Assembly (NCBI RefSeq): GCF_001570725.1
Contig: NZ_BCNV01000001.1
Coordinates: 3,472,001 to 3,536,000 of the forward strand
Length of the DNA: 64,000 bases
Reading direction: 5' to 3'
Source: Paenibacillus amylolyticus
GTDB taxonomy: Bacteria; Bacillota; Bacilli; Paenibacillales; Paenibacillaceae
Shown here: positions 12,069-48,195 of the stretch, piece after piece
How positions within the stretch are numbered: position 1 is the first letter of the stretch
Layout: every line of letters begins with the position of its first letter
Program-made: the position numbers and the translations under genes
The notes under the pieces: generated by a model
Databases searched by the model: none
Told to the model about the DNA's origin: nothing
The model's input: only the letters and a program-made list of their open reading frames with translations

Positions 12069-12265
12069 TGCAATATAAAATCAAACTAGTGCATTTACAC
12101 TGGACACTTCGCTGTCAGAACAACCTTCCGAGCGCTGTTATCCCCAGATTTTTTTGATCCCTTTTAATAAGGGAAAATCCGGGGATAAAGGCGCACACTT
12201 CGTTTCTTCAGGTTTCTTCTGACCTCTCCGTTATCGTGTTTGCATCAAGCAAATTTATATTTGTG
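12069..12265 (+). repeat. Long palindromic element, copy A
   Basis: An imperfect inverted repeat of about 195 bases. The apical core (12133-12210) has TTATCCCCAGATTT paired with AAATCCGGGGATAA around CCCTTTTAATAAGGG, followed on the right by GCGCACACTTCGTTTCTTC. Its outer arms pair with each other: GTCAGAACAACC (left) with the complement of GGTTTCTTCTGAC (right), and CAATATAAAAT with the complement of ATTTATATTTG. It fills the dgkA-cdd gap. Three other copies are in this window. Confidence 0.85.
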
Positions 12266-12315
12266 TGTAGTATTAAAATCAAAACAAAACGAATCAAAAC
12301 AAAGTTAATACAAAA

Positions 12316-12687
12316 TCAGATCAAACCCAGCCAGCTCATCACCGGCTTGATGAAAACGATGCAACCGATGATGACGGCGAATACCGCAGCCAGCAGAACT
12401 GCCCCGGCCGCGGTATCCTTTGCCGCTTTTGCCAGCGGATGGATATGGGGATGTGCCAAGTCAACCGCTGCCTCTACAGCCGTGTTCATCAATTCAGTCA
12501 CCAGAACCAAAAAGACAGCGGTTAGCACAAACATCCAATCTATTCTTGAGATTCTGAAAAAAAAGCCGGCTACACACATCAAAACAGCCACTCCCGTGTG
12601 AACTCTCACATTACGCTGAGTCCGCAACCCATATGCGATTCCTTCCGCAGCATTGCGGAATACCAGACCCCAGGAGCGTCTTTTCAT
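12316..12687 (-). CDS. dgkA: Undecaprenol/diacylglycerol kinase family protein
   Basis: A small integral-membrane lipid kinase. In Gram-positive bacteria this family mainly phosphorylates undecaprenol to recycle the cell-wall lipid carrier. The 123-residue protein has three predicted membrane helices (about 33-48, 52-70 and 92-115) and the family signature ELMNTAVEAAVDL near residue 65, with the metal-binding Glu and Asn. Its start overlaps the ybeY stop by one base (TAATG-type coupling). Confidence 0.93.
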   Translation of the reverse strand: MKRRSWGLVFRNAAEGIAYGLRTQRNVRVHTGVAVLMCVAGFFFRISRIDWMFVLTAVFLVLVTELMNTAVEAAVDLAHPHIHPLAKAAKDTAAGAVLLAAVFAVIIGCIVFIKPVMSWLGLI

Positions 12688-13184
12688 TATCGTGTCAACC
12701 CGGCCTGGGCCAATACCGTCTCTTGTTTGCCCATCATTTCAGCCTCACTAGCTTCATCCTGATGGTCATATCCGAGCAGGTGCAAGAAACCATGGACAAA
12801 CAAAAAACCAAGCTCACGTTCAAATGAATGTCCATACTCCTCACTTTGCAGGATGGTCCGTGGAACGGAAATGATGATGTCTCCAAGAACATCCGGCATT
12901 TCTTCCATTTCTTCATCTTCGTCCAGCTCATAGATAATATCGAGTTCTTCATCCACCGTCTCGTTCATTGCAAAGGACAATACATCCGTAGGACGGTCAA
13001 TACCGCGATAATCACGGTTCAACTCATGGATCTGCTCATCATTCACAAAAGTCAGAGCCACTTCCCCGTCTGCAACACCTTCCGCTTCTCCAGCAAGATT
13101 CAGCAACTGTTCCAGCATTGCAATCATTGGTTCTGTAATTTCTTTATCCTGTTGTTCATTATTCCATGCCAGATTAAGACTCAT
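12687..13184 (-). CDS. ybeY: Endoribonuclease YbeY
   Basis: A zinc-dependent single-strand RNase involved in 16S rRNA 3' maturation and ribosome quality control. The metal-binding signature HGFLHLLGYDH is complete near residue 130, and TDVLSFAM occurs near residue 85. The 165-residue protein has an acidic insertion (DEDEEMEEMPD) just before the DIIIS strand. It is coupled to dgkA downstream and lies near era, another 16S processing factor. Confidence 0.95.
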   Translation of the reverse strand: MSLNLAWNNEQQDKEITEPMIAMLEQLLNLAGEAEGVADGEVALTFVNDEQIHELNRDYRGIDRPTDVLSFAMNETVDEELDIIYELDEDEEMEEMPDVLGDIIISVPRTILQSEEYGHSFERELGFLFVHGFLHLLGYDHQDEASEAEMMGKQETVLAQAGLTR

Positions 13185-13207
13185 TCTTTCATAACTCCTG
13201 TCTGCTA

Positions 13208-13396
13208 ATATTAGAGGTTGTTCAAAAAGCCCGCTTTTGATTACGAATGATGCCTAAGGGCATCATCAGCATCGAATATGGAATTCAGCCGAAATGTCCG
13301 TTGCTCACGTAGTTTTCCCTACGCTCCGCTACTCCATTTCTAACTTCATCCCATCTTCTCGGTACTGAAAACCAACCTTTTTGAACACGAACTATT
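13208..13396 (+). mobile_element. MITE-like element, long copy
   Basis: A non-coding element of about 185 bases with inverted ends TGTTCAAAAAG (13219-13229) and CTTTTTGAACA (13377-13387), extended by AATATTAGAG on the left and CGAACTATT on the right. The left 60 bases match the reverse complement of the short copy at 26857-26946. It occupies the gap between the pgpH stop codon and ybeY and has no coding capacity. Confidence 0.75.
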
Positions 13397-13399
13397 GAA

Positions 13400-15649
13400 T
13401 TAGCCTGCTTCGGGTGAAGTCGGCTTCGGTTTCTTGATCTCCTCCGGATATTCTATCCGGGAGTGGAAGATACCCATCACCGTTTCTTTCAATGTTCTGG
13501 CGACGATATCCAGTTCACGCATCGTAAGGTCGCAATCATTGAATTGATGATCATCCAATCTTCCTTTAATAATCTTCTCAATCATGGACTCCACTTGCTC
13601 CACTGTCGGTTTGCGCAAAGATCTCACAGCAGCCTCCACACTATCGGCAATGCCAACAATAGCAGATTCCTTCGACTGAGCCTTCGGCCCAGGATAACGG
13701 AAATCTTCTTCCGTGAAATCAGGCTCAACGCCTGCTTTTTCCGCCTGTCGCAGTGCTTTGTGATAGAAATAGTGGAGAAATGTCGTGCCATGATGCTGTT
13801 CCGCAATATCCCGAATAGGTCTGGGCAGCTTATAATCCTTCTGCATTTCCACACCATCGCGCGCATGGGCAACAATAATAGATTTGCTCAGTTTTGGATC
13901 AATGGAATCATGCGGATTCTCCATATTGTTCTGATTTTCAATAAAATAGATGGGTCGTTTCGTCTTGCCAATATCATGATAATACGAACCCACTCGGCAG
14001 AGCAATCCGTTAGCTCCTATGGCTTCTGCTGCTGCTTCAGACAGATTCCCTACCATAACGCTGTGATGATAGGTACCCGGGGTCTCCGTCAGTAACTTGC
14101 GAAGAAGCGGATGGTTCGGATTAGACAATTCCACCAGTTTGAGCGCTGACAAGATACCAAATGATGTTTCGAAAAATGGCATCAGCCCGATGACCAGTAT
14201 GGCCGTCAATACGCCTCCAGCAAATGCAAATCCAACGCCATACAGTGTTGTGGTTCGGTTCCAATCTCCCGAGTCAATCAAAGCCAGTGTGAAGACGGCT
14301 ATGGACCCGAACAGGCAGACCATAATGGCCCCTTTCAGGATCGTTGATCGCTGACTAGCCTTATGTGTTGCGAAGATCGCAACAAACGAAACTAGCACGG
14401 CGAAGAACCCTAATTCGAAGTCAAAAAGCTGACCCTGATGCGTGTTCAAAATGATGCTGGACAACATACCGATCAATATTGAACATACAAAGGCAAGCGA
14501 CGTATCCAGCAGCAGCGCAATTAACATTGCCCCTACCGCAACTGGTGCAAGGAAGCCAACATAAGACCTCTCATTGGTCTGGATAATCGCCGTGACATGC
14601 ATAACTACAATCGTAATAATAAAAATGAGAACAAGCATCAACAGCTGCGCATTATTATATTTGAAATGCGTTCCGCTGCATTGCTGAATATACATCAGAA
14701 TTGCTGCCGACAACAGGCAGGAAAACATAAGAAGTCCAAGCTGTGGCCAGTAGTTCACTTCATTTTTCAGCAAGTCATTCTCATCCAGGAGAGCATACAT
14801 TTCCGGGGTGATCATCTCACCTTTGGCAACTAATGTATCCCCTTGCTTGATAAAGACGGTTTGCGTGTTCTCACGCGCCTGTACTTTGGCTTCCTTGGTT
14901 CCCTCTTCGTCGTAGAAGCGGTTAGAGGTCACCACGAGACGAGCAAGCTCCTGCACCACCTCACGTTGCGTGCGCTTACTAAGAGAGCTGACACTCACCA
15001 TCTCGGCTACTTTGGCACGCGCAGTGGTTGCATCGCTAATCTGATCCGTCATTAACCGTGCAACAATGTCCCTCGCAACTGGTTTCATCTCCTGGATATC
15101 ATCCGATGTCAGACGTGAGATTTTGATGTAGGTCTCTTCCGGAATACGGTAGCTTTGCTCCTGTACCACATTTCTGATCTCTTCCAACAGCGTCTCGGAG
15201 TATGTACCGGCTTTCCGATTATTATTGATATAGTTGGTCACAAAATCCTTCTGGCGTTGCGGAATTTCATCCCGATAAATATCAATCTTATCCTGACTTG
15301 AAATCTGATCATCCTGGTTCAATCGATCTACACGATCAAGCAAGGTTGTCATCAAATTTTCGTTCCGCATCTGCACGATCTGAAATATCGGCTGTACGCG
15401 TTCAGCCGCTTCTTCCTGTGCTTTGAGTGTGGCCTTGTTATTCGGAATCTGCATGGGCGCAGCAATATCCACTTCACTCCGTGTACCTTCCTGAATATCA
15501 TACCGCTCGGGGAGCAGCTTGGAAGCCAGACTCACGTAGAAAAGAATCACCAGAAACAAAAACAGAAGATAGCGTGCCCACACGCTATACTTCCATCCTG
15601 TAGCCTTATTCTGAAAAGATTTGCCTTTTGACGGTTCCTTCGAGGTCAC
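13400..15649 (-). CDS. pgpH: HD-domain membrane phosphohydrolase (YqfF/PgpH)
   Basis: A 7TM-HD family protein; its Listeria homologue PgpH hydrolyses the second messenger c-di-AMP. Layout: a short cytoplasmic N-terminus, one membrane helix (YLLFLFLVILFYVSL), an extracytoplasmic 7TMR-HDED domain (about 65-300), a bundle of membrane helices (about 310-500), and a cytoplasmic HD domain with YHHSVMVGNLSEAAAEA and SYYHDIGKTKRP supplying the HD metal ligands. The start is placed at GTG 15649, after the phoH stop codon, with AGAAAGG upstream; TTG 15658 is an alternative. A longer frame would overlap phoH extensively without resembling the family. Length is about 749 residues. Confidence 0.92.
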   Translation of the reverse strand: MTSKEPSKGKSFQNKATGWKYSVWARYLLFLFLVILFYVSLASKLLPERYDIQEGTRSEVDIAAPMQIPNNKATLKAQEEAAERVQPIFQIVQMRNENLMTTLLDRVDRLNQDDQISSQDKIDIYRDEIPQRQKDFVTNYINNNRKAGTYSETLLEEIRNVVQEQSYRIPEETYIKISRLTSDDIQEMKPVARDIVARLMTDQISDATTARAKVAEMVSVSSLSKRTQREVVQELARLVVTSNRFYDEEGTKEAKVQARENTQTVFIKQGDTLVAKGEMITPEMYALLDENDLLKNEVNYWPQLGLLMFSCLLSAAILMYIQQCSGTHFKYNNAQLLMLVLIFIITIVVMHVTAIIQTNERSYVGFLAPVAVGAMLIALLLDTSLAFVCSILIGMLSSIILNTHQGQLFDFELGFFAVLVSFVAIFATHKASQRSTILKGAIMVCLFGSIAVFTLALIDSGDWNRTTTLYGVGFAFAGGVLTAILVIGLMPFFETSFGILSALKLVELSNPNHPLLRKLLTETPGTYHHSVMVGNLSEAAAEAIGANGLLCRVGSYYHDIGKTKRPIYFIENQNNMENPHDSIDPKLSKSIIVAHARDGVEMQKDYKLPRPIRDIAEQHHGTTFLHYFYHKALRQAEKAGVEPDFTEEDFRYPGPKAQSKESAIVGIADSVEAAVRSLRKPTVEQVESMIEKIIKGRLDDHQFNDCDLTMRELDIVARTLKETVMGIFHSRIEYPEEIKKPKPTSPEAG

Positions 15650-15665
15650 TTTAGACAATCCCTTT

Positions 15666-16637
15666 CTATGCTTGATTTTCTGCGGCGTGGTTGTAAGCCA
15701 CGATAATTTTCTGGACGAGGGAATGCCGCACAACATCTTGCTCGGCAAAATAGACAAATCCAATCTCGTTAACTTCGTTCAAGATCGTATTCGCTTCCAC
15801 AAGCCCGGATTTCTTACCACGCGGTAAATCAATCTGTGTCACGTCTCCGGTGATGACCATTTTGGAGCCAAAACCAAGACGCGTCAGGAACATCTTCATC
15901 TGTTCCGGTGTTGTGTTCTGTGCTTCATCAAGAATGATGAAGGAGTCATCCAGTGTACGCCCCCGCATGTAGGCGAGTGGCGCAATTTCGATTAACCCAC
16001 GCTCCAGTGCCTTAGCGGTCTGTTCCTGTCCCATAACGTCATACAGGGCATCGTACAGCGGTCGCAGATATGGGTCTACCTTCTCCTGAAGATCACCTGG
16101 CAAAAACCCAAGACTCTCTCCCGCTTCAACAGCAGGCCGTGTGAGTACGATACGTTTGACGCTACCTTCTTTAATTGCGGCAACAGCCAGTACAACAGCA
16201 AGGTAGGTTTTACCCGTACCGGCAGGACCAATGCCAAATACAATATCACGTTTTTTAATTGTAGTTACATAGTGCTTCTGTCCAATGGTTTTAACACGGA
16301 TTGGTTTACCTCGGTATGTCGTCGTAATCTCACCCTTGAACAGATCCAATAGCTGGTCTGCCCGCATATCCTTGGCAAGTTCAATCGCATACTTCACATC
16401 TCTTTCGGTTAACACGTATCCGTTGCGTATCAATTGCAGTAACACATCAAATAATTGTTCAAGCGATTCCACCTGTTGTGCATTGCCGAAAATCACAATC
16501 TCCGCTTCACGGGATGCAATCTGGGCGGGAATCTCGGATTCAATCAATTTAAGAAAAGTATCTTGGGGTCCAAAAAGAGATTGGCCCTCTCCCGCACTCT
16601 GGAGGGAGATTTGTATGCTGCGTGTTTGCTCTGACAA
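15666..16637 (-). CDS. phoH: PhoH family ATPase
   Basis: A P-loop NTPase of the PhoH family, related to the helicase-like half of PhoH2 and implicated in RNA metabolism. The Walker A motif GPAGTGKTYLAV is near residue 132, the Walker B-like segment DSFIILDEAQNTTPEQMKMFLTR near 232, and GDVTQIDLPRGKKSGL near 268. The 323-residue length is normal. It follows yqfD by 6 bases and is followed by pgpH after 16 bases, so it belongs to the same transcript as the sporulation pair upstream. Confidence 0.95.
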   Translation of the reverse strand: MSEQTRSIQISLQSAGEGQSLFGPQDTFLKLIESEIPAQIASREAEIVIFGNAQQVESLEQLFDVLLQLIRNGYVLTERDVKYAIELAKDMRADQLLDLFKGEITTTYRGKPIRVKTIGQKHYVTTIKKRDIVFGIGPAGTGKTYLAVVLAVAAIKEGSVKRIVLTRPAVEAGESLGFLPGDLQEKVDPYLRPLYDALYDVMGQEQTAKALERGLIEIAPLAYMRGRTLDDSFIILDEAQNTTPEQMKMFLTRLGFGSKMVITGDVTQIDLPRGKKSGLVEANTILNEVNEIGFVYFAEQDVVRHSLVQKIIVAYNHAAENQA

Positions 16638-16643
16638 ATATCC

Positions 16644-17837
16644 TCATTCTCCTTGACTATGGACTAGCGGAAGTTCCTCCGCAATGCTTTCTTCTACCTC
16701 AAATAAGACTTTCATATAAACTTTACCATTCTCTTTCTTCTCATGCAAAATTTTTTCACTTATAATTTTCGTTCCTTTGCCGTTTTTGGCGATAATATCG
16801 TTCCTTGCTCCTTCCAATCCTTTTGTTCTGGCCCATTCTATCGTTTGTTGTTCCTCATGCTCTCGGGTCTCCAGGTCCTTCTCTGTCAGCCAGCCCATGG
16901 GAAGTGTAAAGGATCGCCAGGTCAATGGTTTGTGATTGCTCTCGGTATCAAATGAACTGAACGGTGTACTTCCATATCCCCATAGTTGGATCGCCCATTT
17001 CCCCAACACCATGTAAAAACGTTCTTTGCTCTCACCTGTCATCGTGTTATGTTTTTGAACAAGCGGGACTTCTACCTGATACTCACGCCATACCAGTCCA
17101 CGAACTTCACCTTTGGCAACGATGGTCTTGGTGTTCTCCTCATCCCCGAGAATACCCGAGATCAATACCTGACCCTTTTTGACACGCATGTCCTTCTGAA
17201 CAACAGGACGTCCCTGCTCTGCATAGATTTGAGTGACAACAGCATCTGCTTTGCTGATCAAATGTCTGGGATTCAGTAATGGCTCGCGCTTCGGTTGCGC
17301 CGATTCCACGACCTGAATGGTAATGGTTGTCCCCTCTTTGCTCACACCAATCCAGGTTACATCCGGCAGGGCGAGTGCGAGCTGTCTGGAGAGCTTGTCT
17401 TGGCTTTGCAAGCGGAACCCCCACTGGAAAGGGTATACCCCCTCTTTCTTCGCTGCTGCGAGCACCTCGTCCGTAGGAATGGTAACGTTACCCTTGACCT
17501 CCACATTCCACACCATAGACGACAACGCAAATAGAGCTGCCACAAAAAACAACATTCCCCCGAGAAAAAACTTCCTTCGCAATAGTCGGGCCGCAAAAAA
17601 AGGAAAACCGCTGCGATGGGTCACTTTCACTCTGCAGCCTGTCCGTTTCAACATCGGACGCAGCCTGAAAAAATGCGGCAGCAGAATGTTCATCTCTGCC
17701 ACGCGTCCATCGCGAGCACGCAGGTTCCACACTTCAAGTCCCTGCTCTGCTACCGTGTTGATCAATGCTTCAATGTCTCCCCCAGTGACCGTGATTCGGA
17801 CTGCTCCCCGCAGTTTGTACAGACTGGGCTGCTTCAT
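16644..17837 (-). CDS. yqfD: Sporulation protein YqfD
   Basis: A 397-residue sporulation-associated membrane protein of the YqfD family, needed for efficient sporulation in B. subtilis by an unknown mechanism. It has a cytoplasmic N-terminal segment (1-85), one membrane helix at about 93-113 (FFLGGMLFFVAALFALSSMVW), and an extracytoplasmic domain with KEGVYPFQWGFRLQS and WIGVSKEGTTITIQVVE. Its start overlaps yqfC by 4 bases. Confidence 0.92.
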   Translation of the reverse strand: MKQPSLYKLRGAVRITVTGGDIEALINTVAEQGLEVWNLRARDGRVAEMNILLPHFFRLRPMLKRTGCRVKVTHRSGFPFFAARLLRRKFFLGGMLFFVAALFALSSMVWNVEVKGNVTIPTDEVLAAAKKEGVYPFQWGFRLQSQDKLSRQLALALPDVTWIGVSKEGTTITIQVVESAQPKREPLLNPRHLISKADAVVTQIYAEQGRPVVQKDMRVKKGQVLISGILGDEENTKTIVAKGEVRGLVWREYQVEVPLVQKHNTMTGESKERFYMVLGKWAIQLWGYGSTPFSSFDTESNHKPLTWRSFTLPMGWLTEKDLETREHEEQQTIEWARTKGLEGARNDIIAKNGKGTKIISEKILHEKKENGKVYMKVLFEVEESIAEELPLVHSQGE

Positions 17838-18127
17838 CTGTTCCCCTCCACTCCATTCATATGAATATCCAGAATTGTTCCTTCAACAGCTACTTCATCC
17901 GGCAAAATGTTGCGTATCACCAAAGCAGTCCCTTTGATCTCCAACTGGCCTTGGGAAAGAGCCAGCACGATGCGATCCGGCGTGAAATGGATGACACCGC
18001 GATGATTCTCTATATACAGTTGCTTACTGCCAATCAGGGTTAACCGTGGCATATCATAAAGCACATCCTGCGGCAGATCCAACACTTCACTGGTCCATCT
18101 GCGCAGCTTGCGGCTGATCCGGGTCAT
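17834..18127 (-). CDS. yqfC: Sporulation protein YqfC
   Basis: A 97-residue protein of the YqfC family, which is paired with yqfD in endospore formers; its molecular role is unknown. Recognisable segments are DLPQDVLYDMPRLTLIG and GTALVIRNILPDEVAVEG. A GAGGAAGGGGG site precedes the ATG. A sigma-E-like promoter lies about 30 bases upstream, in line with mother-cell expression in B. subtilis. Confidence 0.9.
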   Translation of the reverse strand: MTRISRKLRRWTSEVLDLPQDVLYDMPRLTLIGSKQLYIENHRGVIHFTPDRIVLALSQGQLEIKGTALVIRNILPDEVAVEGTILDIHMNGVEGNR

Positions 18128-18157
18128 TCGAAGGTCTTCCCCCTTCCTCTACAGTTC

Positions 18158-18186
18158 AACTTATGCGCAGATTCATGAATTTATGA
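18158..18186 (-). promoter_or_regulatory. Sigma-E-like promoter of yqfC-yqfD
   Basis: On the minus strand TCATAAA (18180-18186) and CATAAGTT (18158-18165) are 14 bases apart, close to the mother-cell sigma-E consensus (KMATATT, N14, CATACAHT). The predicted start lies about 25 bases before the yqfC ATG. Confidence 0.5.
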
Positions 18187-18235
18187 AAATTCCGGGGTGT
18201 GTTAGATACGAATGTTGAGAAAAAAGGATAGAACA

Positions 18236-18282
18236 CAGAAAAAGCCGTCTCCGGCGGCTTTATGCTCACCAGAGACGGCTCT
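18236..18282 (-). terminator. Terminator after the flotillin operon
   Basis: AGCCGTCTC (18272-18280 on the complementary strand) pairs with GAGACGGCT (18243-18251) and is followed by TTTTTCTG on the minus strand. It ends the yqeZ-floA-(18308) transcript before the sigma-E-like promoter. Confidence 0.85.
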
Positions 18283-18307
18283 ATTTCCGTCCAATAGTAT
18301 GACTTGT

Positions 18308-18907: not shown

Positions 18908-18920
18908 ATGCACTCACCGC

Positions 18921-19931: not shown

Positions 19932-20092
19932 AGTTTAAATTCCTCCATTTGCAATTTGAATTTGTTAAAAATATTAGAAAAGACAATCATAAGTCCGCTG
20001 CTAAATTAAAGAATGCACCACCTCGCTGGCAGCTTCAGCTACGTGGTTATGTACATTGCCGAAGCGTTGATCCGCTTCGACAACAGAGCGAG

Positions 20093-21454: not shown

Positions 21455-21506
21455 AATAGTCCCCCCTTTTCCATTAATGTTATACTGTCCAGCTTATGGT
21501 ATTTAT

Positions 21507-39734: not shown

Positions 39735-39804
39735 ACTGAAAGTATCATTCATTTAAACTTTACTTTACCTTACGAGAGATTAAAAAAAGTGAAAAGAGAC
39801 TCTT

Positions 39805-41181
39805 CTAATTCTTTTTACTACGCACTTCGAAAATAGCAAATTTCAGGTAATGTCCCTCATCCACGCCCAAAATTTGCGGGTGATCCTTACCAGCTGCTTT
39901 CCAGTCGATTAGACGCAGCACTTTGCCTGCATCTTCCGCTGCATCCGCAATCGTATCCAGGAAGAGGTCTGGACGCATGTGATATGAACAGCTCGCTGTT
40001 ACCAAATATCCACCCTCATTGACCAGTTTCATTCCTTGCAGATTGATATCTTTATATCCACGGCATGCACCTTTGACTGCTGATTTCGTTTTGGCAAATG
40101 CAGGAGGATCAAGGATGACCACATCAAATGTTTTACCGCCAGCTGCCAGCGCTTTGGATGTATCCACTTTCTGTTCGCCTGCACGCGCACGTGCGGTACG
40201 TTCATCCAGCCCCTTCACTTGTTCACGCAAGTACTGGAATGCATCAGCAACTACGAACTCGACCCGGTCAGTGAAACCGTTCAGCTCCACATTTGTTCGT
40301 GCACTCTCAATGGCATGCTCCGAAATATCAAGACAAGTCACTTTTTTGGCTCCATACTTACAAGCATTCAACGTGAAGCTGCCCGTGTGTGAGAAGCACT
40401 CCAGTACGGTAGCACCATCCCAATAAGGGAATGTAACCACCTTACCGCTTTTATTCACAGGCAAGAGCTGCTCTGTGCCATCCTGCTCGGTCTGTTGAAG
40501 TGTAATTCCACTCTTATAGCCCCAACCCTTCATGAGGGGTTCGATCGCTGCACGATTCTCGCGTTGGTCGAAGAAGTAACCTGTCTTCTGTCCTTCCACG
40601 ATATCCACTTTAATGAGTAGTCCATTCTCTGTAACGGTGACATGTCGTGGACACTCTCCATACAGCGGACCTTTGGTCTGCTCCAAACCTTCCAGTTCAC
40701 GAATCGAGACATCACTGCGCTCATAGATGCCTTCCGGCTGCATCACTTCAATGAGTGCTTGTACAATGGCTTCACGGCAATGATCCATGCCGAGTGTAAG
40801 CAACTGTACAACGAGAATGCTGCCGAACCGGTCAACGATCAATCCTGGCAGAAAATCAGCTTCTCCGTATACAAGACGGTACGCCTCTCCATCCTGGATA
40901 AAGCGTTCCCGATGACGCAAGCAATCGCGGAAACGAGCTGCAAAGAACGCCGTGTCCATCTGTTCGGACTCCAGCGGTTGATACGATACAACCCTTACAG
41001 TGATCTGAGATGCAGGATTGTAATAACCTGTCGCCAAATAGCGACCTTGATGATTCAATACATTGACCAGATCTCCCGGTTCCGGGTTTCCGTCAACAGA
41101 GGCAATTTCATTGTTAAATATCCATGGATGCGCATGTTCAAGCCGCTTTTTGCGACTGCGTTCGAGTGTAACTGATGGCAA
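39805..41181 (-). CDS. Class I SAM-dependent rRNA methyltransferase (RlmI/YwbD-like)
   Basis: A 23S rRNA cytosine-C5 methyltransferase-like protein with an N-terminal PUA domain (residues 1-75; HPWIFNNEIASVDGNPEPGD) and a C-terminal Rossmann domain: VLECFSHTGSFTLNACKYGA (motif I, near 260), VVILDPPAFAKTKS (motif IV, near 355) and LVTASCSYHM with a conserved Cys. The 458 residues exceed the usual roughly 395: about 30 residues are inserted before motif I and about 25 before motif IV (ERTARARAGEQKVDTSKALA). The precise target nucleotide is not assigned. It is transcribed alone from a gap filled with palindromic repeats. Confidence 0.87.
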   Translation of the reverse strand: MPSVTLERSRKKRLEHAHPWIFNNEIASVDGNPEPGDLVNVLNHQGRYLATGYYNPASQITVRVVSYQPLESEQMDTAFFAARFRDCLRHRERFIQDGEAYRLVYGEADFLPGLIVDRFGSILVVQLLTLGMDHCREAIVQALIEVMQPEGIYERSDVSIRELEGLEQTKGPLYGECPRHVTVTENGLLIKVDIVEGQKTGYFFDQRENRAAIEPLMKGWGYKSGITLQQTEQDGTEQLLPVNKSGKVVTFPYWDGATVLECFSHTGSFTLNACKYGAKKVTCLDISEHAIESARTNVELNGFTDRVEFVVADAFQYLREQVKGLDERTARARAGEQKVDTSKALAAGGKTFDVVILDPPAFAKTKSAVKGACRGYKDINLQGMKLVNEGGYLVTASCSYHMRPDLFLDTIADAAEDAGKVLRLIDWKAAGKDHPQILGVDEGHYLKFAIFEVRSKKN

Positions 41182-41208
41182 GGTAGATCCACTTCCTTTA
41201 CTTTAATA

Positions 41209-41408
41209 GTTCAAAAGATAGGTTTGGTGCGGCGCGTAGATGGCGTTTCGGTTACGAATCGATCTTCCGATCGCTGTTGTCTCCAGATTTTTTTGATTCC
41301 CTTTTTTAAAGGGAAAATCCGGAGACAAAGGCGCACGCTTCGCTTCTTCAGATTCGATTTCGTCCCCTCCACTACGTTTGCACGAATCACCGTATCTTTC
41401 GAATTGAG
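41209..41408 (+). repeat. Long palindromic element, copy B
   Basis: An imperfect palindrome of about 200 bases. The core 41272-41350 has TTGTCTCCAGATTT pairing with AAATCCGGAGACAA; relative to the other copies two base pairs are changed on both sides, so pairing is kept. Outer arms also pair: TTCAAAAGATAGG with the complement of CGTATCTTTCGAA, CGTAG with CTACG, and ACGAATCGATC with the complement of GATTCGATTTCGT. It lies between the rRNA methyltransferase gene and copy C. Confidence 0.85.
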
Positions 41409-41454
41409 ATGGGGCAGTTGAGAGCATGTTGGCGCTAAGTTGTTACTATAAGCG

Positions 41455-41638
41455 CTATATGAGTGACGCTACGGCGACGACTTGTTCCTCTGATCGCTGT
41501 TATCCCCAGATTTTTTGAACTCCCTTTTCTCAAAGGGAAAATCCGGGGATAAAGGCGAGCGCTTCGCTTCTTCGGTAACAATTTCGTCTTCTTCGCTACA
41601 CTTGCACGAATCACCGTATCTTTCGAATTGCGGTGGGG
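41455..41638 (+). repeat. Long palindromic element, copy C
   Basis: The core 41494-41572 resembles copies A and D (TTATCCCCAGATTT with AAATCCGGGGATAA). The arms are GACGCTAC with the complement of TCGCTACAC, and GACGACTTGTTCC with the complement of GGTAACAATTTCGTC. The last 30 bases (CACGAATCACCG onward) are almost identical to the end of copy B, so B and C form a direct tandem. Together they account for most of the 559-base gap between the rRNA methyltransferase and the plus-strand transporter. Confidence 0.82.
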
Positions 41639-41740
41639 TAATTTAGGTCGCTTCCCTCTGAATTCCTTTAGGCTTGTCATGGTTGTCTTTGTTTACTCAT
41701 AGGATGAGTTAAGGAACCGGACGGAAGGAATGATGTTTCT

Positions 41741-42742
41741 ATGTTTAGAGATGTGATATTGCCCCTACTCTATGGGCTTATTATCTTTTTTGGTGGCATG
41801 AAGCTGATGGAGACTGCCTTGCAGCGCATGGCTGGGCCCATGCTGGCAGGTTGGCTCAATCGTGCTACCTCTGCTCCATGGAAAGGCATGGCTTTCAGCG
41901 CGGGTGCAACGGCCCTGTTGCAGAGTAGTACTGCGGTCACTGTACTCACCATTGGACTGGCTAACGCCAGATTGCTGACCTATGGACGCACACTCGGCAT
42001 CATCCTTGGCACCAACATCGGGACATGTCTGACGACGGAGCTGGTAGGACTGCAGATCGGACGTGCTTCCCTACCGCTACTCGTCCTGTCGCTGACGGGC
42101 TGGGCCATGTTTGTTGTTCTTGGTGAACGCAATCTGGCCGCTCCTGAACGCACGCGCCGGACTCTGTTCAACATCCAGTACAGCTTCCTCGCAGCTGCGG
42201 GATTTGCACTTGTTATGACAGGCATTCAGGTGATGCAATCCATTGCCTTACCCTTACGGAGCATGGGCGTATTTCAATGGTTTCTCGACCGCTCGGCCGA
42301 CAGCTTGTGGTGGGGCTTCCTGGCAGGTGCCTGTCTGACAGCGCTCATTCACAGCAGCGCGGCTGTCATTAGCATGGCGATTACGCTCGCAGCCACAGGG
42401 GTATTGCCTGTGGAGATCGGCATCGCCATTGTGATCGGGTCCAACGTGGGGACCTGCATCACCGCCGTGATCGCTGCCGCGGGCGGAGCATCCGCAGGCA
42501 AATTTGTCGCAGCCTCCCATGTTGTATTAAACATTGCGGGAGCGCTGCTGTTTATGCCGCTGATCGGCCAGCTGCATGCAGCTTCGGCCTGGCTGTCAGC
42601 GGACAACGGGGCACAGATTGCGCATGCCCAGACCCTTTTTAACATCACCAGTTCACTGCTTGCCTTACCGTTCTGTTACTTGCCAATCTGGCACAAAAAA
42701 CCACCGGTCCACGCCCCCGCGGCGAAGTCACCCGTGGCTTGA
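41741..42742 (+). CDS. yqeW: Na/Pi cotransporter family protein (YqeW)
   Basis: A membrane protein of the NptA/PhoU-associated Na+/phosphate symporter family, 333 residues with about eight to nine hydrophobic segments. The two inverted family repeats are visible with the characteristic LLQSSTAVTVLTIGLANA (near residue 62) and LIHSSAAVISMAITLAATG (near residue 203), each followed by GTNIGTC or GSNVGTC. It lacks the C-terminal PhoU-like domain of the longer subfamily, like B. subtilis YqeW, which also lies near yqeV. Phosphate transport is inferred, not shown. The Ala/Pro-rich C-terminal tail is unusual. Confidence 0.87.
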   Translation: MFRDVILPLLYGLIIFFGGMKLMETALQRMAGPMLAGWLNRATSAPWKGMAFSAGATALLQSSTAVTVLTIGLANARLLTYGRTLGIILGTNIGTCLTTELVGLQIGRASLPLLVLSLTGWAMFVVLGERNLAAPERTRRTLFNIQYSFLAAAGFALVMTGIQVMQSIALPLRSMGVFQWFLDRSADSLWWGFLAGACLTALIHSSAAVISMAITLAATGVLPVEIGIAIVIGSNVGTCITAVIAAAGGASAGKFVAASHVVLNIAGALLFMPLIGQLHAASAWLSADNGAQIAHAQTLFNITSSLLALPFCYLPIWHKKPPVHAPAAKSPVA

Positions 42743-42800
42743 TGATCTGTCTATCCAGACCTGAGGAACGTGTGCGATAACTGGACAAGACAGCCACTCG

Positions 42801-43235
42801 TTATACGTTAATGCCCAACTTGTTCAGTGCTACACGCAAGATGTCATCGTTATTATCATATCCGCTCTGCTGCTGTCTGGACCATGCTTCTTCCGGAGCA
42901 TACCAATCCACACCCTTGATTTCTTCAATCTGAGGCTGTAAATCACCACTCTCGGCTTCAACAAGATAGTAATGGACTTCCTTATCTACCGGACCGAACT
43001 CTGCATGTTGGTACGTATATGCAATGATATCGACTGGTTCCACAATACGACCGACCATACCTGTCTCTTCCAAAATCTCGCGCAATGCCGTCTGTTCAAT
43101 TGTTTCTCCATCTTCCATTTTGCCCTTGGCGAGAGTCGTTTTACCATAACGATCTACGATAAGCTGAATTTGAAGACGTCCGTCTTCCCCTGTTCTATAG
43201 ACAACTCCGCCTGCTGAAATTTCTTTTTTGTTCAT
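42801..43235 (-). CDS. Nudix hydrolase
   Basis: A pyrophosphohydrolase of the Nudix superfamily; the substrate is unassigned. The Nudix box is complete as GKMEDGETIEQTALREILEETG near residues 36-57. The start at MNKKEISAGGVVY follows GGGGGAG by 6 bases and gives 145 residues; the longer open frame upstream is not family-like. It is preceded by mtaB by 107 bases and converges with yqeW. The KEISAGGVVYR start resembles diadenosine polyphosphate hydrolase-type enzymes, but this is only a resemblance. Confidence 0.88.
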   Translation of the reverse strand: MNKKEISAGGVVYRTGEDGRLQIQLIVDRYGKTTLAKGKMEDGETIEQTALREILEETGMVGRIVEPVDIIAYTYQHAEFGPVDKEVHYYLVEAESGDLQPQIEEIKGVDWYAPEEAWSRQQQSGYDNNDDILRVALNKLGINV

Positions 43236-43342
43236 CGTGCTCTCCCCCATCGACTTCAATATCTTATTTTTTTGCAAAAGAAGGACCTCATCTCCCGGGT
43301 AAGCTCCCCAAGGAAATGAAATCCTTGTTTCTGACGCCTCGA

Positions 43343-44689
43343 TCACATCGCGGCGGACTTAAGATTCTCTTCCAACACACGTACCAGCGTAGCCTGACTC
43401 TCATTGACGCCAGCTTCAACCACTTTGACTCGGCACACTTTACCGACCATATCCATGGTTCCTTCAAAGACCAGCTGAATGTAGTTGTCGCTATAACCGT
43501 GCAGCTTGCCGCTTCCCTCGCGGCCTTTGGCTTCGCCTTCAGGAATGACATCCAGTACCTGTCCGACAAACTGCTCAGCGTACTCCAGCTGCATCTGCTC
43601 GGACAAGTCAATCAGTTCATGCACACGTGCATTTTTGACCTCTTCGTCCACCTGATCTTCCATTCGTGCTGCTGGTGTACCCGTACGCTTGGAATAAGGA
43701 AATACGTGCATTTCGGAGAAACCGATTTTCCGCATCAACTCATAGCCATTACGGTACATCTCATCCGTCTCACCCGGAAATCCAACAATAATGTCAGTCG
43801 TAATCGCCACATCTGGCATCGCTTCCCGAATGCGAAGCATTTTGTTGTAGAACTCTTCTGTCGTATATTTGCGACGCATGCGTTTCAATACTGTATCATC
43901 CCCGGCTTGCAGCGGAATATGGAAGTGACGAACGAGTTTGTCCGAACGTTTGATCACGTCGAGCATGCGGTCATCGATCTGACTCGCTTCAATCGAGCTG
44001 ATTCGAATACGCTCCAGACCCTCTACTTTATCCAAATCCCACAGCAGATCGGTCAGATCATAGTTTTCCATGTCATCCCCATACCCACCTGTATGAATAC
44101 CAGTCAGAACAATCTCCTTGTATCCGGCGTGTACGAGTTGATGCGCCTGTTGAACGATGCTGTTCGCTTCCCGGCTGCGTGAGAGACCACGAGACCACGG
44201 AATAATGCAGAATGTACAGAAGTTATTGCAACCATCCTGAATCTTCAGGAAAGCGCGGGTACGGTCAGCAAAATCCGGTACGTCCATCTCTTCAAATACA
44301 CGGGTTTTCATAATATTACGCACCGCGTTAACGGGTTGACGTGACTCCTGAATTTCATTGACATATGGCAAAATCTTGTCACGGTCCTGTGTACCGATAA
44401 CCAGATCCACGCCAGGGATGTCCAGAATCTCTGCCGGAGAAGTCTGCGCATAGCAGCCTGTAACGGCCACAATCGCCTCTGGGTTGCGCCGAATGGCACG
44501 ACGAATAATTTGACGGCTCTTTTTGTCGCCGGTATTGGTTACTGTACAAGTATTAATCAAGTATACATCCGCTGTCTGTTCGTCAAAGTCCACTTGATCG
44601 TATCCTTCGTTTTTGAACAATTGCCAAATCGCCTCTGTATCATAGAAATTAACTTTGCAGCCTAAGGTGTAAAACGCCACGGATGGCAT
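43343..44689 (-). CDS. mtaB: tRNA t6A37 methylthiotransferase MtaB
   Basis: A radical SAM enzyme that converts t6A37 to ms2t6A37 in ANN-decoding tRNAs. The N-terminal UPF0004 domain carries cluster cysteines (LGCKVNFYDTEA, INTCTVTNTGDKKSR, VTGCYAQT), the radical SAM motif is DGCNNFCTFCIIPWSRG near residue 152, and a C-terminal TRAM domain holds VLDVIPEGEAKGREGSGKLHGYSDNYI. The 448-residue length is normal. It starts 2 bases after the rsmE stop. B. subtilis yqeV is the counterpart. Confidence 0.96.
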   Translation of the reverse strand: MPSVAFYTLGCKVNFYDTEAIWQLFKNEGYDQVDFDEQTADVYLINTCTVTNTGDKKSRQIIRRAIRRNPEAIVAVTGCYAQTSPAEILDIPGVDLVIGTQDRDKILPYVNEIQESRQPVNAVRNIMKTRVFEEMDVPDFADRTRAFLKIQDGCNNFCTFCIIPWSRGLSRSREANSIVQQAHQLVHAGYKEIVLTGIHTGGYGDDMENYDLTDLLWDLDKVEGLERIRISSIEASQIDDRMLDVIKRSDKLVRHFHIPLQAGDDTVLKRMRRKYTTEEFYNKMLRIREAMPDVAITTDIIVGFPGETDEMYRNGYELMRKIGFSEMHVFPYSKRTGTPAARMEDQVDEEVKNARVHELIDLSEQMQLEYAEQFVGQVLDVIPEGEAKGREGSGKLHGYSDNYIQLVFEGTMDMVGKVCRVKVVEAGVNESQATLVRVLEENLKSAAM

Positions 44690-44691
44690 AA

Positions 44692-45456
44692 TTACATTCC
44701 TCCCATTTCTCCGGATTCATATAGCACGCAAGTTAGTGCTGCCATTCCAGCTGTCTCAGCACGCAAAATGCGTTTGCCCAGTCCAACAGATACAGCACCT
44801 GCCTGATCAGCTTCTGCCGTCTCCTTCTCAGAAAATCCACCTTCCGGTCCAACAACGATCAATACTTCTGCACTCGCACCAGGTGCAAGCTGTTCAACAA
44901 ACGGTTTCAGCGCATCTCTCAGCTGTTTACCGTTTTCTTTCTCATAACAATAACATACCAGGCTATAGCCCTCAAAAGAAGATAACAGCCCTTTCCAGGA
45001 AAGTGGCTGCTCAACGGATGGAATGCGATTCCGGTGACTCTGTTCGGCAGCTTCCTTGGCAATTTTTCGCCACCGCTCCAACCGTTTGCCTTCTTTCTTG
45101 GCATCATATTGCACAATCGTACGTTCTGATAGGAAGGGTACAAATGATACCGCCCCGATCTCAGTACATCTCTGGATGACTGTTTCCATCTTGTCACCTT
45201 TGGGCAAACTCTGTGCCACGGTTACACGAATCCGCGCTTCATGGTCCATAACCAGTGACTCTACAATATTGGCCGTCACTTGGCCAGCTTCAATCGTCTC
45301 AATCTCCACGAGTGCTTCTCTGGAGTTTCCGTCACTGACAATCAGTTTATCTCCAGGCTTACCACGCATAACCTTACCGATATGGCGTGCATCATCACCT
45401 GTGATGATCACAGCGTGTTCATTAAACTGTTCTGCAGATACAAAATATCGCTGCAT
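44692..45456 (-). CDS. rsmE: 16S rRNA (uracil(1498)-N3)-methyltransferase RsmE
   Basis: A SPOUT-class methyltransferase that makes m3U1498 in 16S rRNA. It has an N-terminal PUA-like RNA-binding region (HAVIITGDDARHIGKVMRGKPGD) and the C-terminal knot with VVGPEGGFSEKE and GLGKRILRAETAGMAAL near residues 205-240. The 254-residue length is normal. The order M50 protease, rsmE, mtaB corresponds to B. subtilis yqeT-yqeU-yqeV with the protease added. Confidence 0.95.
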   Translation of the reverse strand: MQRYFVSAEQFNEHAVIITGDDARHIGKVMRGKPGDKLIVSDGNSREALVEIETIEAGQVTANIVESLVMDHEARIRVTVAQSLPKGDKMETVIQRCTEIGAVSFVPFLSERTIVQYDAKKEGKRLERWRKIAKEAAEQSHRNRIPSVEQPLSWKGLLSSFEGYSLVCYCYEKENGKQLRDALKPFVEQLAPGASAEVLIVVGPEGGFSEKETAEADQAGAVSVGLGKRILRAETAGMAALTCVLYESGEMGGM

Positions 45457-45593
45457 AAGTCAATCCACCCATTCTGTCCTGTTATGACTGGAATTCACCC
45501 CGCCCAATGACAGGCGTGAATCCAATCGCCACAGATGATCATACAACTTTTACATGTTTCTGACCAGTATATCCGTCCAAACACGATACGCTT

Positions 45594-46274
45594 TTAGCGA
45601 TATATTTCAATAATCACCTTTGCCAGATCCACATACATCGTTTGCGCGAACTCATACAAAGGTTGAATCGTTACATTTTGCAAAGGAGGTATAACTAGAA
45701 TTAATAGGAAGATAAAAATGGACCATTGCTCCACACCTTGCAGCTTGCGGCTGATTGAAGGTGGCAGTGCATCTTCTAGAATCCGATAACCATCCAACGG
45801 AGGCAACGGAATCAAGTTAAACAGGAACAGGAAAAAGTTTGTTAAGTTAAAGATAGCGAAGAACGTCGTAATTGCTGTCAGCAGCCGCTCATTATCAATC
45901 CCGCCGAGTGCTCCTGAACCAACCAGTGAGGCATAGATGATTGTACCGATGATCGCGAGTAATAAATTGCTTAGAGGCCCTGCTGCGGATACGATGATGC
46001 CCATCAATCTAGGCTTGTCGAAGTTAGCCCGATTAACCGGAACCGGACGTGCCCAACCAAAACCGGCAATAATGAGCAGGAGCACACCAAACAAATCAAA
46101 GTGAACAACCGGATTCAGTGTAACCCGACCCAACAGCTTGGCTGTCGGATCACCGAATTTGTTTGCAAAATATGCATGCGCGAATTCATGCACCGTAAAT
46201 GCGATCAGAATGGTCAGCAGGAAAAACGGAAGCTGATCGATCGGATAACGAAAGAACGAATTCCAAAAGTCCAT
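45594..46274 (-). CDS. Site-2 protease family (M50) membrane metalloprotease
   Basis: A 226-residue rhomboid-like zinc protease of the M50B/FtsH-independent type, with about five or six membrane helices. The zinc motif HEFAHAYFANKFGDPTAK is near residue 29, and the third ligand region is LFNLIPLPPLDGYRIL near residue 148. Short M50 proteins of this kind cut membrane-spanning substrates, but the target here is unknown. It begins 3 bases after the prmA stop, so the two are cotranscribed. The 137-base gap to rsmE contains an inverted repeat without a T-run. Confidence 0.88.
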   Translation of the reverse strand: MDFWNSFFRYPIDQLPFFLLTILIAFTVHEFAHAYFANKFGDPTAKLLGRVTLNPVVHFDLFGVLLLIIAGFGWARPVPVNRANFDKPRLMGIIVSAAGPLSNLLLAIIGTIIYASLVGSGALGGIDNERLLTAITTFFAIFNLTNFFLFLFNLIPLPPLDGYRILEDALPPSISRKLQGVEQWSIFIFLLILVIPPLQNVTIQPLYEFAQTMYVDLAKVIIEIYR

Positions 46275-46277
46275 GGG

Positions 46278-47243
46278 TTACCCCTTTCTGGCTACAAACG
46301 CCAGCCAATCCTCATCACGGTGGATCGCACTCACTTCAAACCCGGAGGCTACCAGTGCATCATGTACAACCTGCTCTTTGTTCTTCCAAATACCCGATAC
46401 AATATAGGTACCACCAGACTCAAGCGCATTATAGACATCATCTACGAATAACAAAATGATCTCAGCCAGAATGTTCGCCACGACAACCTTAACTGGCAGT
46501 TGCACACCAAGCGCAGGGTCCTGACTCCCGAGGACGGACAACAGATCACTCTCTTTAACCGTAATTTGTTGCTCCAGCCCATTCAGTTCCACATTCTCCC
46601 TGGCACTGATTACCGCAACCGGATCAAGATCGAGCGCCAGCACATGTTTTGCCCCAAGCTTGATCGCTCCGATAGCCAAAATACCCGAACCTGTACCTAC
46701 GTCAATAACTTCCTCGCCGCCCTGAATAACCGTTTCCAATGTGCGCAAGCAGAGGGAGGTCGTTGGATGTGTTCCTGTTCCAAAAGCCATACCTGGATCA
46801 AGCTCAATGATTTTCTCATCCGGACTTTCAGGCGTATACTCCTCCCACGTTGGTTTGATCGTCAGACGTTCCGATACACGTACCGGCTTGAAATATTGCT
46901 TCCAAGCTGTTGCCCAGTCATTTTCATCCACTGTACGCGTCTCATAACGAACCTCACCTGTATCAATTCCAAATTCAGAGAGTTCCTCAATTCTCGGATG
47001 AACTTCGGACTGCAGTGCAACCATATCCGTACCTTCGGAGAAGTACCCTTTGATGACCGCAAAGCCTTCAGGAATATCATTCAAAGGAACATCGTATAAC
47101 TCACCATACGTTGTGTCCCGTTTTTTATTTAAAGTACCGGACTCTTCAATCGAAACCCCTCCAGCACCCGCTTCATGTAAAAAATTCGAAATCATCTCCA
47201 CAGCTTCTTCTGTGGTATGTATTGTTAGTTCATGCCATAACAT
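46278..47243 (-). CDS. prmA: Ribosomal protein L11 methyltransferase PrmA
   Basis: Methylates amino groups of ribosomal protein L11. The N-terminal ferredoxin-like recognition domain (1-80) begins MLWHELTIHTTEEAVEMI; the catalytic domain has IDVGTGSGILAIGAIKLGA (motif I, near 180), ALDLDPVAVISARENVELN, and VVVANILAEIILLF (the family NILA motif). The start was set at the ATG 12 codons inside the longest frame, with GAGGAGG 11 bases upstream. It has 321 residues and, as yqeT in B. subtilis, lies downstream of dnaJ, here separated by three small genes. Confidence 0.95.
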   Translation of the reverse strand: MLWHELTIHTTEEAVEMISNFLHEAGAGGVSIEESGTLNKKRDTTYGELYDVPLNDIPEGFAVIKGYFSEGTDMVALQSEVHPRIEELSEFGIDTGEVRYETRTVDENDWATAWKQYFKPVRVSERLTIKPTWEEYTPESPDEKIIELDPGMAFGTGTHPTTSLCLRTLETVIQGGEEVIDVGTGSGILAIGAIKLGAKHVLALDLDPVAVISARENVELNGLEQQITVKESDLLSVLGSQDPALGVQLPVKVVVANILAEIILLFVDDVYNALESGGTYIVSGIWKNKEQVVHDALVASGFEVSAIHRDEDWLAFVARKG

Positions 47244-47325
47244 ACTTGGTTTTTCCTCCTCATTTTTCAAACATCCCAACTATTGTACTACACAAGCGAG
47301 CCGGAGCACAAAGCCGACCACGAAA

Positions 47326-47374
47326 AGAAAAACAAAACAGGATATCCGCAGTCTAGCTGCTCGAATATCCTGTC
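47326..47374 (-). terminator. Terminator upstream of prmA
   Basis: ACAGGATATTC pairs with GGATATCCTGT (47363-47373 with 47337-47347) and is followed by TTTTGTTTTTC on the minus strand. It ends the transcript of the two small genes at 47433-47997. Confidence 0.85.
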
Positions 47375-47432
47375 ATCTATTCAACCATATCTATATCATT
47401 TACTTAAGCATTTTGCATAATTTGAATCTCAC

Positions 47433-47825
47433 TTAACAAAAACGTCCACCGTTCTGCGTGATCATCTCTGCGGCTTGCGGGAGCGAATCGTTGGATATGG
47501 ACACGGTCAGCAAAATTTCTTGTTTTATCCTGTCGGCCGAATCCGCTTCGGGCGTATCATACACCTGACCATTGGATAACATTTCCGTTTCATCACTAAT
47601 CAGGGCAAGTACATTCAATTCGCCACTAAATCCTCCGACGACAGCCGTAGGAGAATTATCGGAGCCCGTAACATCGTGTGAGTTTAAGGCAGACGCTTCA
47701 TTGCCGAGACTCTCGATACTCAATTGGTTCGGGTGTAACAATTCCAGGGCTCTGCGTGCAGACTCGGCCTCAGCCCAGCTTGTAAATACAGCTTCGAGGG
47801 TAACCGCCGAGCGATCTTCAGTCAT
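47433..47825 (-). CDS. Hypothetical stress-type protein, relative of 48218-48586
   Basis: A 130-residue protein not recognised by name. The start was set at the ATG giving MTEDRSAVTLEAVFTSWAEA; GGGAG is close upstream. The N-terminal unit (LEAVFTSWAEAESARRALELL, then LSIESL) has the beta-alpha-beta look of YflT-like general stress domains, and the C-terminal unit (ILLTVSISNDSLPQAAEMITQNGGRF) repeats the same style. The same N- and C-terminal patterns occur in the protein at 48218-48586, so they are probably paralogues. Its start overlaps the stop of the small YfhD-like gene by 8 bases. The function is unknown. Confidence 0.75.
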   Translation of the reverse strand: MTEDRSAVTLEAVFTSWAEAESARRALELLHPNQLSIESLGNEASALNSHDVTGSDNSPTAVVGGFSGELNVLALISDETEMLSNGQVYDTPEADSADRIKQEILLTVSISNDSLPQAAEMITQNGGRFC

Positions 47826-47997
47826 GAAGCTCCCGTCCCTGACGTCGATCAGCCGCTTCACTGCGGCGTAGTGCTTCGATATCCTCATGATCCGCAGCTT
47901 CAGCGCTGAATTCCACGTCCTCATTTTTAGCGGACTGCAATCGTTTCATCTTTTCCGTTTTCGTGAGAATCTTGCCTGGACGTTCATGTTCTGCCAT
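47818..47997 (-). CDS. Small YfhD-like acidic protein
   Basis: A 59-residue ORF with an excellent AAGGAGGAGC ribosome-binding site 6 bases before its ATG. It starts MAEHERPGKILTKTEKMKRL and continues with DVEFSAEAADHEDIEALRRS and EAADRRQGRELHD. The DVEFS-A-D-DLEA-AADxRQ pattern resembles the YfhD family of small Bacilli proteins, whose function is unknown. Its stop codon overlaps the start of the next gene (47825), indicating translational coupling. It lies directly downstream of palindromic element D. Confidence 0.8.
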   Translation of the reverse strand: MAEHERPGKILTKTEKMKRLQSAKNEDVEFSAEAADHEDIEALRRSEAADRRQGRELHD

Positions 47998-48029
47998 TGT
48001 TATGCTCCTCCTTCAAATTAAAATGAACT

Positions 48030-48195
48030 AATACGTGTACACTGTAACACTCCGATTGTAGTCCCATCCTCCGATCGCTGTTATCCCCAGATTTCTTCAA
48101 CTCCCTCCTTAAAGGGAGAAATCCGGGGATAAAGGCGCACGCTTCGCTTCTTCAGATTGGTTCTACACTCTCCGTTAAAGTGTAATTATCTGTCC
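48030..48195 (+). repeat. Long palindromic element, copy D
   Basis: The core 48075-48153 has TTATCCCCAGATTT paired with AAATCCGGGGATAA, with inner CTCCCT/AGGGAG. Outer arms pair: TACACTGTAAC (left) with the complement of GTTAAAGTGTA (right) and TGTAGTCCCATC with the complement of GATTGGTTCTACA. Arm sequences differ from copies A-C but remain complementary to each other. It fills the 220-base gap between the two related small genes. Confidence 0.85.

Follow-up and report, generated by a model that had tools for sequence, protein, structure and literature searches.

The question raised by this stretch of DNA, 64,000 nucleotides of the Paenibacillus amylolyticus genome (assembly GCF_001570725.1, contig NZ_BCNV01000001.1; the whole stretch is hereafter the window), is what four palindromes, here called elements A to D, represent. 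An earlier note on the same DNA described a common apical hairpin with arms specific to each copy yet self-complementary, and proposed a functional fold (RNA or extruded DNA hairpin) or a copying mechanism in which one arm serves as the template for rewriting the other. The analysis presented here leads us to regard as probable, on balance, a mobile RNA leader or intercistronic element, that is, a miniature inverted-repeat transposable element (MITE) with a structured-RNA interior, moved in trans and kept where its fold is transcribed in sense. The earlier reading contained neither the IS630-type MITE nature of the repeat nor its sense position upstream of gene starts.

Family size, pairing and strand

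The four elements belong to a numerous family. In the genome from which the window is taken (G000; G001 is a second genome of the same species and L-numbers denote individual loci), one copy used as query gave 192 candidate copies, and all of those scored (40/40) matched. A 12-mer from the core had 475 + 516 matches on the two strands, compared with 91 + 101 for the reversed control, and a hidden Markov model scan of 1.197 Mb of G000 returned 54 stretches, fragments and split matches included. Copy density per 100 kb of G000 was 1.75 in 400 kb of contig C1, 4.5 in C3, 6.0 in C6 and 5.6 in C11; C7 held 15 copies in 40 kb, in a region chosen for its matches. The repeat is present in 67 of 75 genomes of the genus Paenibacillus, and a single DNA query across the order matched 252 of 392 genomes and 25 of 49 genera. 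A covariance model found it in 38/38 genomes from 20 genera and three families of the order, a set hand-picked because an earlier DNA search had matched its members and thus not an unbiased prevalence. A pattern scan of GTDB gave at least 112 stretches; among the 80 matches listed, 79 were named Paenibacillus and one Bacillus sp. FJAT-27264. Three loci (L256, L261 and L269, in G119, G123 and G077) are the one model match in their genomes, and in G119 and G123 this is the same locus, ahead of a putative α-L-fucosidase-like open reading frame (ORF).

An Rfam search of the window gave RNase P as the only match (a class A RNase P RNA at 28–437 on the minus strand), and among 15 loci searched at E values up to 5 the one match was mir-737, which scored 28 bits where the cut-off is 60. 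There was thus no match at or near a gathering score, and the repeat is not a known Rfam family. No description or existing name of it was found in the open-access literature, most subscription papers lying outside the scope of the search.

Conservation of pairing rather than of sequence, as the earlier note had proposed, is strongly supported across genera. The arms of copies from other genera differ widely and yet stay complementary (for example GCGGAACATCC/GGATTGTTCCGC, GATGGATCATTC/GAACGATCCATC and GGTTTGGAAGGAG/CTCCTTCCAAACC). A copy's own partner arm was its best binder in 21 of 29 cross-genus copies (30 were fetched and one was dropped as a duplicate arm), with means of −19.7 versus −9.4 kcal/mol; in the own genome this held in only 9/62, because copies there share arms. 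In an alignment of 44 sequences that was fitted to the model structure and leans towards it, 95.6% of 919 cells were paired and 16 of the 21 pairs showed double changes, a level reached in 0/500 shuffles, while slid partners gave 45–50%. The three pairs of a small hairpin vary on one side only. Covariation among these 44 sequences exceeds its controls, and by this measure the repeat is a structured RNA family. The supposed copy specificity of the arms was not borne out: a script placed 123 parsed genus copies nearest to one of three arm types (97, 17 and 9 copies), with A nearest the commonest, D the second, and B and C the third. The arms are specific to subfamilies and not to single copies.

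Once copies with an extra hairpin had been left out, the minus strand gave the more stable fold in 108 of 124, and it had the lower z-score in 9/10 segments. A constant mismatch in the inner stem, P2, reads A.C on the plus strand in 87 of 119 genus copies and 14 of 30 from other genera, which is G.U on the minus strand; the other frequent states at this position, A-U and G-C, pair on both strands. The loops of the small hairpin read G..A on the minus strand in 85/97 genus and 23/27 other-genus parsed copies and are GNA or GNRA-like. We strongly infer from the covariation and the strand asymmetry that the minus-strand RNA would fold into an outer stem, P1, whose sequence is free and which contains a bulge; a conserved junction that bears the small GNA/GNRA-type hairpin; and P2 with a variable apex. 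Because of this strand asymmetry, seen in fold stability, G.U pairs, loops and gene orientation, an RNA is favoured over a DNA hairpin; the functional fold proposed earlier is strongly supported, and its DNA-hairpin variant is disfavoured.

Ends, insertion sites and neighbouring genes

Among 139 copies from the own genome, G001, G067 and sister species, both ends were recognizable, with up to four mismatches each, in 68, the remaining copies having degenerate or other ends. The hairpin described previously is real, but the repeat is longer: copies with both ends and without the extra insert are mostly 191–198 bp, a repeat of ∼195 bp with terminal inverted repeats CTATATAAGTTGAAC...GTTCAACTTATATAG and terminal letters CTATATAAGTTGAACTAA...TTAGTTCAACTTATATAG. 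Comparison of two genomes of the same species, the empty-site check that the earlier note had suggested, bore out insertion. At site 1 the empty allele is CTCCGCTC-TA-TTTAAAATTC and the filled one has the element between two TA, an exact duplication, and at site 2 the empty allele is CTAG. TA duplication with a preference for CTAG is a trait of IS630. The picture was less clear at the remaining polymorphic sites, some of which are internal deletions that leave one end. Across the 75 genus genomes, site 1 was matched in 46. By hand count, 33 of these, one of them at 65% identity, ran without a break through 380 or more of the 401 bases, six were split by 178–255 bp, two were split by ∼70 bp and five were partial matches; site 2 was likewise mixed, with many uninterrupted.

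Being short and without a transposase, with terminal inverted repeats, target-site duplication and empty sites, the repeat is a MITE, and its movement must depend on a transposase supplied in trans. Matches to PF13358 (DDE_3, the IS630-family transposase) occur in 21 of the 75 genus genomes, with none in G000 or G001. Among 30 fetched IS630 loci, five (L233, L234, L212, L232 and L217) have the same ends as the repeat, ∼1.16 kb apart; in L233 the transposase gene lies in two ORFs. The repeat therefore shares its ends with an IS630-family element, as an IS630/Tc1-mariner-derived MITE would, and lacks a mobilizing transposase in the same genome. Judging from these ends, an IS630 relative can have been the mover in trans, and the repeat may now be stranded in its own genome. 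The IS630-like ends are limited to copies ending in CTATATA; B and C in the window and several copies from other genera are without them.

Seven copies from other genera (L251, L252, L253, L266, L260, L267 and L242) have different outer inverted repeats around the same core, among them CCGGTGAA/TTCACCGG, CCACTGAA/TTCAGTGG and CTAGAAGGG/CCCTTCTAG; these ends, read by eye from single copies, are suggestive of other transposon types.

The position of the copies relative to genes is asymmetric. With each element in window orientation, left denoting a minus-strand gene, we counted start codons no further than 150 nt outside the arm that had at least five matching Shine-Dalgarno letters and opened an ORF of 60 codons or more. 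Such a start lay on the left in 39/78 and on the right in 3/78 copies of the own genome; the corresponding counts were 7 and 0 of 13 in G001 and G067, 12 and 2 of 30 in other genera, and 32 and 8 of 68 in a set drawn independently from named genomes, from which copies with less than 300 nt on a side had been dropped. The bias persisted at five other cut-offs (left/right 23/2 to 48/6 in the own genome and 7/1 to 15/5 in other genera). On the left, 32 of the own-genome starts lie 37–89 nt from the arm, which leaves little beyond the terminal repeat and the Shine-Dalgarno sequence. ORF-based neighbours of 41 elements (one counted twice) were minus–minus in 21 cases, plus–minus in nine, minus–plus in eight and plus–plus in three. 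In 27/39 sense copies an ORF of at least 60 codons ends within 200 nt upstream, so that these 27 are probably operon-internal. A promoter in the terminal repeats is disfavoured as the cause of the bias, since the same terminal sequence at both ends does not fit a bias of 39 to 3. The two stretches scanned contained nothing promoter-like.

Genes downstream of own-genome copies include sdhB, uvrC, purC, purS, purH, carA, thyA, fabG and hisS, and those in other genera purD, argJ, cbiE–cbiT and hslV; within this mixed list purine genes recur. At L171–L172 (G000 C3, at about 13–24 kb) copies lie ahead of purC, purS and purH within ∼10 kb, apparently one purine operon.

The window copies and the apex

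The four palindromes were confirmed in place, each with complementary arms of its own as described, by inspection and by covariance-model matches at 12096–12237, 41235–41378, 41458–41602 and 48040–48181 (E values of 1e-31 to 3e-28); the model was built from 78 copies that include these four, and the matches are therefore a check of location and not an independent test. The next plus-strand match in the window had an E value of 0.82, and no other full copy fell below 0.8. A core 20-mer with up to three mismatches matched five times (four left arms and, on the other strand, one right arm), with 0 expected from shuffles. None of the four has a qualifying gene start within 150 nt on its right side.

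Element A (12069–12265) is RNA-sense on the minus strand, as are the others by assignment; its P1 strands are the left arm GTCAGAACAACC (12114–12125) and the right arm AGGTTTCTTCTGAC (12210–12223), and P2 with the apical hairpin spans 12138–12188. It is flanked by a diacylglycerol kinase gene (12316–12687, minus strand) and a cytidine deaminase-like ORF (11635–12084, minus strand), whose likely ATG near 12049 is 64 nt from A, with a Shine-Dalgarno match of only four letters. Element B (41209–41408, minus strand), with arms ACGAATCGATCT (41254–41265) and AGATTCGATTTCGT (41350–41363), bears in P2 the two compensatory double changes noted earlier, which are real (GTTGTCTCC/GGAGACAA versus GTTATCCCC/GGGGATAA); 70 nt separate its arm from the TTG start of a downstream PUA/methyltransferase gene (39805–41181, minus strand). 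The diverged element C (41455–41638, minus strand; arms GACGACTTGTTCC at 41476–41488 and GGTAACAATTTCGTC at 41574–41588) adjoins B and stands behind it, 293 nt from the same gene start; G001 and G067 have a different, degenerate sequence at its site. Element D (48017–48206, minus strand, its ends placed by eye), with arms TGTAGTCCCATC (48057–48068) and GATTGGTTCTACA (48155–48167), lies directly upstream of the Shine-Dalgarno sequence AAGGAGG of a 59-residue ORF (47818–47997, minus strand), with another ORF (48218–48595, minus strand) on its other side; the element is absent from this site in G067. The 59-codon ORF overlaps a 163-codon ORF (47433–47924, minus strand) in another frame, and the two are possibly one gene with a frameshift, or the shorter a small gene.

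The G001 copy at the site of D (L118) has the same arms as D and one change in 372 flank positions, but compared with the apex of D (48080–48135) it differs at many positions; the apex of D is a local hotspot of replacement. No identical donor apex for a gene conversion was found among the sampled copies, which cover part of the genome. Between G000 and G001, 14 of 19 orthologous pairs were compared, five with deletions, fragments or diverged sequence having been dropped. Differences amounted to 12.0% in the apex, 7.1% in the right strand of P2, 2.8–3.3% in the arms with loops, 0.8% in the left strand of P2 and 2.5% in the flanks; the 10.5% of the outer part is inflated by three copies without clear ends. 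The background is 5.2–5.7% at fourfold sites and 1.6–2.2% between genes. The core is thus about as changeable as intergenic DNA elsewhere and evolves less rapidly than fourfold sites, and the apex outpaces both.

In some copies the junction contains an extra stem-loop, GCTTCCGATGCAGCTTTCTTTCAGAAAGCTT, or even a tandem pair of them (L035, L036, L040, L046, L047, L060 and others; also G000 C11 at 30320, 137151, 213359 and 234498). It resembles the conserved CTTCCGAT loop and may, from this likeness, be an optional RNA domain. That this nested hairpin is an independent repeat was not supported, since every one of the eight pattern hits in 1.197 Mb was no more than 60 nt away from an element. GGA motifs of the CsrA type were also considered; by eye they are not conserved across genera, and they were dropped.

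Competing explanations and known systems

In the course of events that we propose, a copy with IS630-matching ends would insert at TA, apparently preferring CTAG, and duplicate the TA, as is shown for CTATATA-ended copies. Copies would come to lie preferentially where the minus strand runs past the left end into a gene start, as is shown statistically, either between operon genes or in a 5′ leader. The transcribed strand would then adopt the predicted P1/junction/P2 fold, with arms remaining complementary because selection acts on the fold and not on arm sequence. The fold may act in cis in the mRNA, insulating or stabilizing the leader or offering a site for a conserved factor, and such cis action would account for sense copies being tolerated or kept, and for the rarity of antisense copies close to gene starts.

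A number of observations weigh against this proposal, in addition to the lean of the pair-count alignment and the by-eye reading of foreign ends mentioned above. The arms and junction of resident copies change at about the intergenic rate, and constraint on single copies is not proven. Wobble counts outside the constant mismatch are mixed: within the genus there were 21 G.T versus 12 A.C, the outermost pair contributing 16 of these G.T (which may reflect the extra hairpin inserted there), and in other genera five G.T versus nine A.C; in the model alignment wobbles stood at 6 versus 15 outside the small hairpin and 6 versus 1 inside it. Among 27 sister-species copies, chosen as the best matches to the single copy L005, gene starts lay four times on the left and twice on the right, which is no bias, and a looser Shine-Dalgarno requirement gave 5/7. 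Random positions in the loci of the named set also lean left, although far less (0.12 left versus 0.06 right). The scripted positional criterion was passed in the window by B only, with A and D missing narrowly. The downstream proteins that were looked up (20 from the own genome, nine from other genera and one window ORF) have no single shared function. Lastly, a terminator-like hairpin is present on the minus strand in 10/30 other-genus copies (one in shuffles), which is awkward because a leader must be read through.

The repeat might instead be a purely selfish IS630-type MITE, with a sense bias that stems only from the purging of harmful antisense leader copies and an RNA without function, an explanation that we regard as possible though doubtful. 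Long self-complementarity comes with MITEs, and TA duplication, IS630 ends, polymorphic insertions and decay by internal deletion are all in keeping with it, as are the absence of positional bias in the copies most like L005 and the view of the pneumococcal repeats BOX and RUP as parasitic (in the relevant passages of PMC3049150). A further point in its favour is a terminator-like hairpin on the plus strand in 31/78 own copies (13 in shuffles) as opposed to three on the minus strand. As the sole cause of the bias this terminator was rejected, since the bias persists without it (24/1 of 47 own copies and 10/2 of 27 from other genera). Moreover, the places where BOX and RUP are over-represented lie between convergent genes (PMC3049150, same passages), and the interior of the present repeat is kept across the order while its arms and, by eye, its outer ends differ, whereas the interiors of plain MITEs are expected to drift. 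Selfish spread combined with the purging of antisense copies can explain why the repeat is mobile and some of its bias; it leaves unexplained an interior that outlasts its arm sequences, and the bias of the copies that have no plus-strand terminator-like hairpin.

A cis-regulatory RNA of the classical kind, either riboswitch-like or under the control of a protein, that has a defined regulon and was spread by transposition, is unlikely. The sense position just before gene starts, the conserved junction and the purine genes downstream (purC, purS and purH, and purD in another genus) would suit it; the very high copy number, the functional mixture of downstream genes (sdhB, uvrC, thyA, fabG, hisS, argJ and hslV) and the ORFs that end close upstream of 27 of the 39 sense copies would not. 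A structure at the DNA level, such as a cruciform or single-strand hairpin recognized in transposition, replication or recombination, appears equally improbable to us: the palindrome is near-perfect and the apex changes in blocks, as expected at a fragile hairpin tip, but such a structure predicts no strand preference, and the minus strand folds better, carries the G.U pair and the G..A loops, and is the one with which gene orientation is biased. Template switching that rewrites one arm from the other, yielding complementary arms without selection, is very improbable and is not needed for the arms, since, although P1 has few one-sided intermediates and the apex of D was replaced as a block, the block changes between orthologues concern the apex while the arms of most change little, no other sampled copy has an identical apex, and the offset P1 bulge, which arm copying would erase, persists by eye across genera.

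Returning to the mobile RNA element, a bolder form of the proposal, which we offer tentatively and hold to be somewhat unlikely, is that several transposon types have, over a very long period, spread one and the same RNA domain through the Paenibacillus order. In each genome this domain would be inserted or kept in sense immediately ahead of the ribosome-binding sites of many genes, most of them housekeeping genes, and would bind a cellular factor that is itself conserved. This would be a post-transcriptional network built by transposition, in which the RNA is conserved and the transposon ends are exchangeable. If the mobile RNA element proposed here is real, a structured RNA family that ranks among the most numerous in a genome has so far gone unannotated, and the turning of bacterial repeats into regulatory RNA would be directly addressable with reporters, natural copies being available in many contexts.

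By analogy with known repeats, this one would work like a MITE-borne RNA element. REP/BIME sequences are high-copy palindromes in intergenic and intercistronic positions, the short REPs being tied to a tyrosine transposase, whereas the Paenibacillus repeat is ∼195 bp with terminal inverted repeats and TA duplication. The other comparisons draw on the papers cited and on a review of MITEs (PMC10969869), and set the repeats apart by their descriptions and not by sequence comparison. The bcr1, bcr2 and bcr3 repeats of the Bacillus cereus group are likewise high-copy, MITE-like and often located in untranslated regions or between operon genes, and they are transcribed (PMC3446304); bcr1 is listed with a conserved predicted structure (PMC2267715). 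In contrast to the present repeat, which spans an order, bcr1 is described as confined to the B. cereus group (a title in the reference list of PMC3446304), and the passages on bcr in PMC3446304 and PMC2267715 report no orientation lock ahead of gene starts such as the sense bias seen here.

RUP of Streptococcus pneumoniae is similar in being short, in having ends like those of IS630-Spn1 and in its proposed movement in trans, but it is about 107 bp and lies between convergent genes and not in sense leaders (described in part of PMC3049150). BOX, from the same species, is modular with a predicted RNA fold and can be co-transcribed as a 5′ or 3′ extension; it differs in its modules and in its bias towards convergent genes, and its authors argue against a general upstream regulatory role (same part of PMC3049150). 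Known MITE-like repeats with predicted RNA folds are mostly lineage-restricted and parasitic-looking. The Paenibacillus repeat is set apart from them by its breadth across the order, over which its fold covaries, by a constant core that outlasts changing arm sequences and apparently, from ends read by eye, the transposon ends as well, and by its orientation with the mRNA ahead of gene starts.

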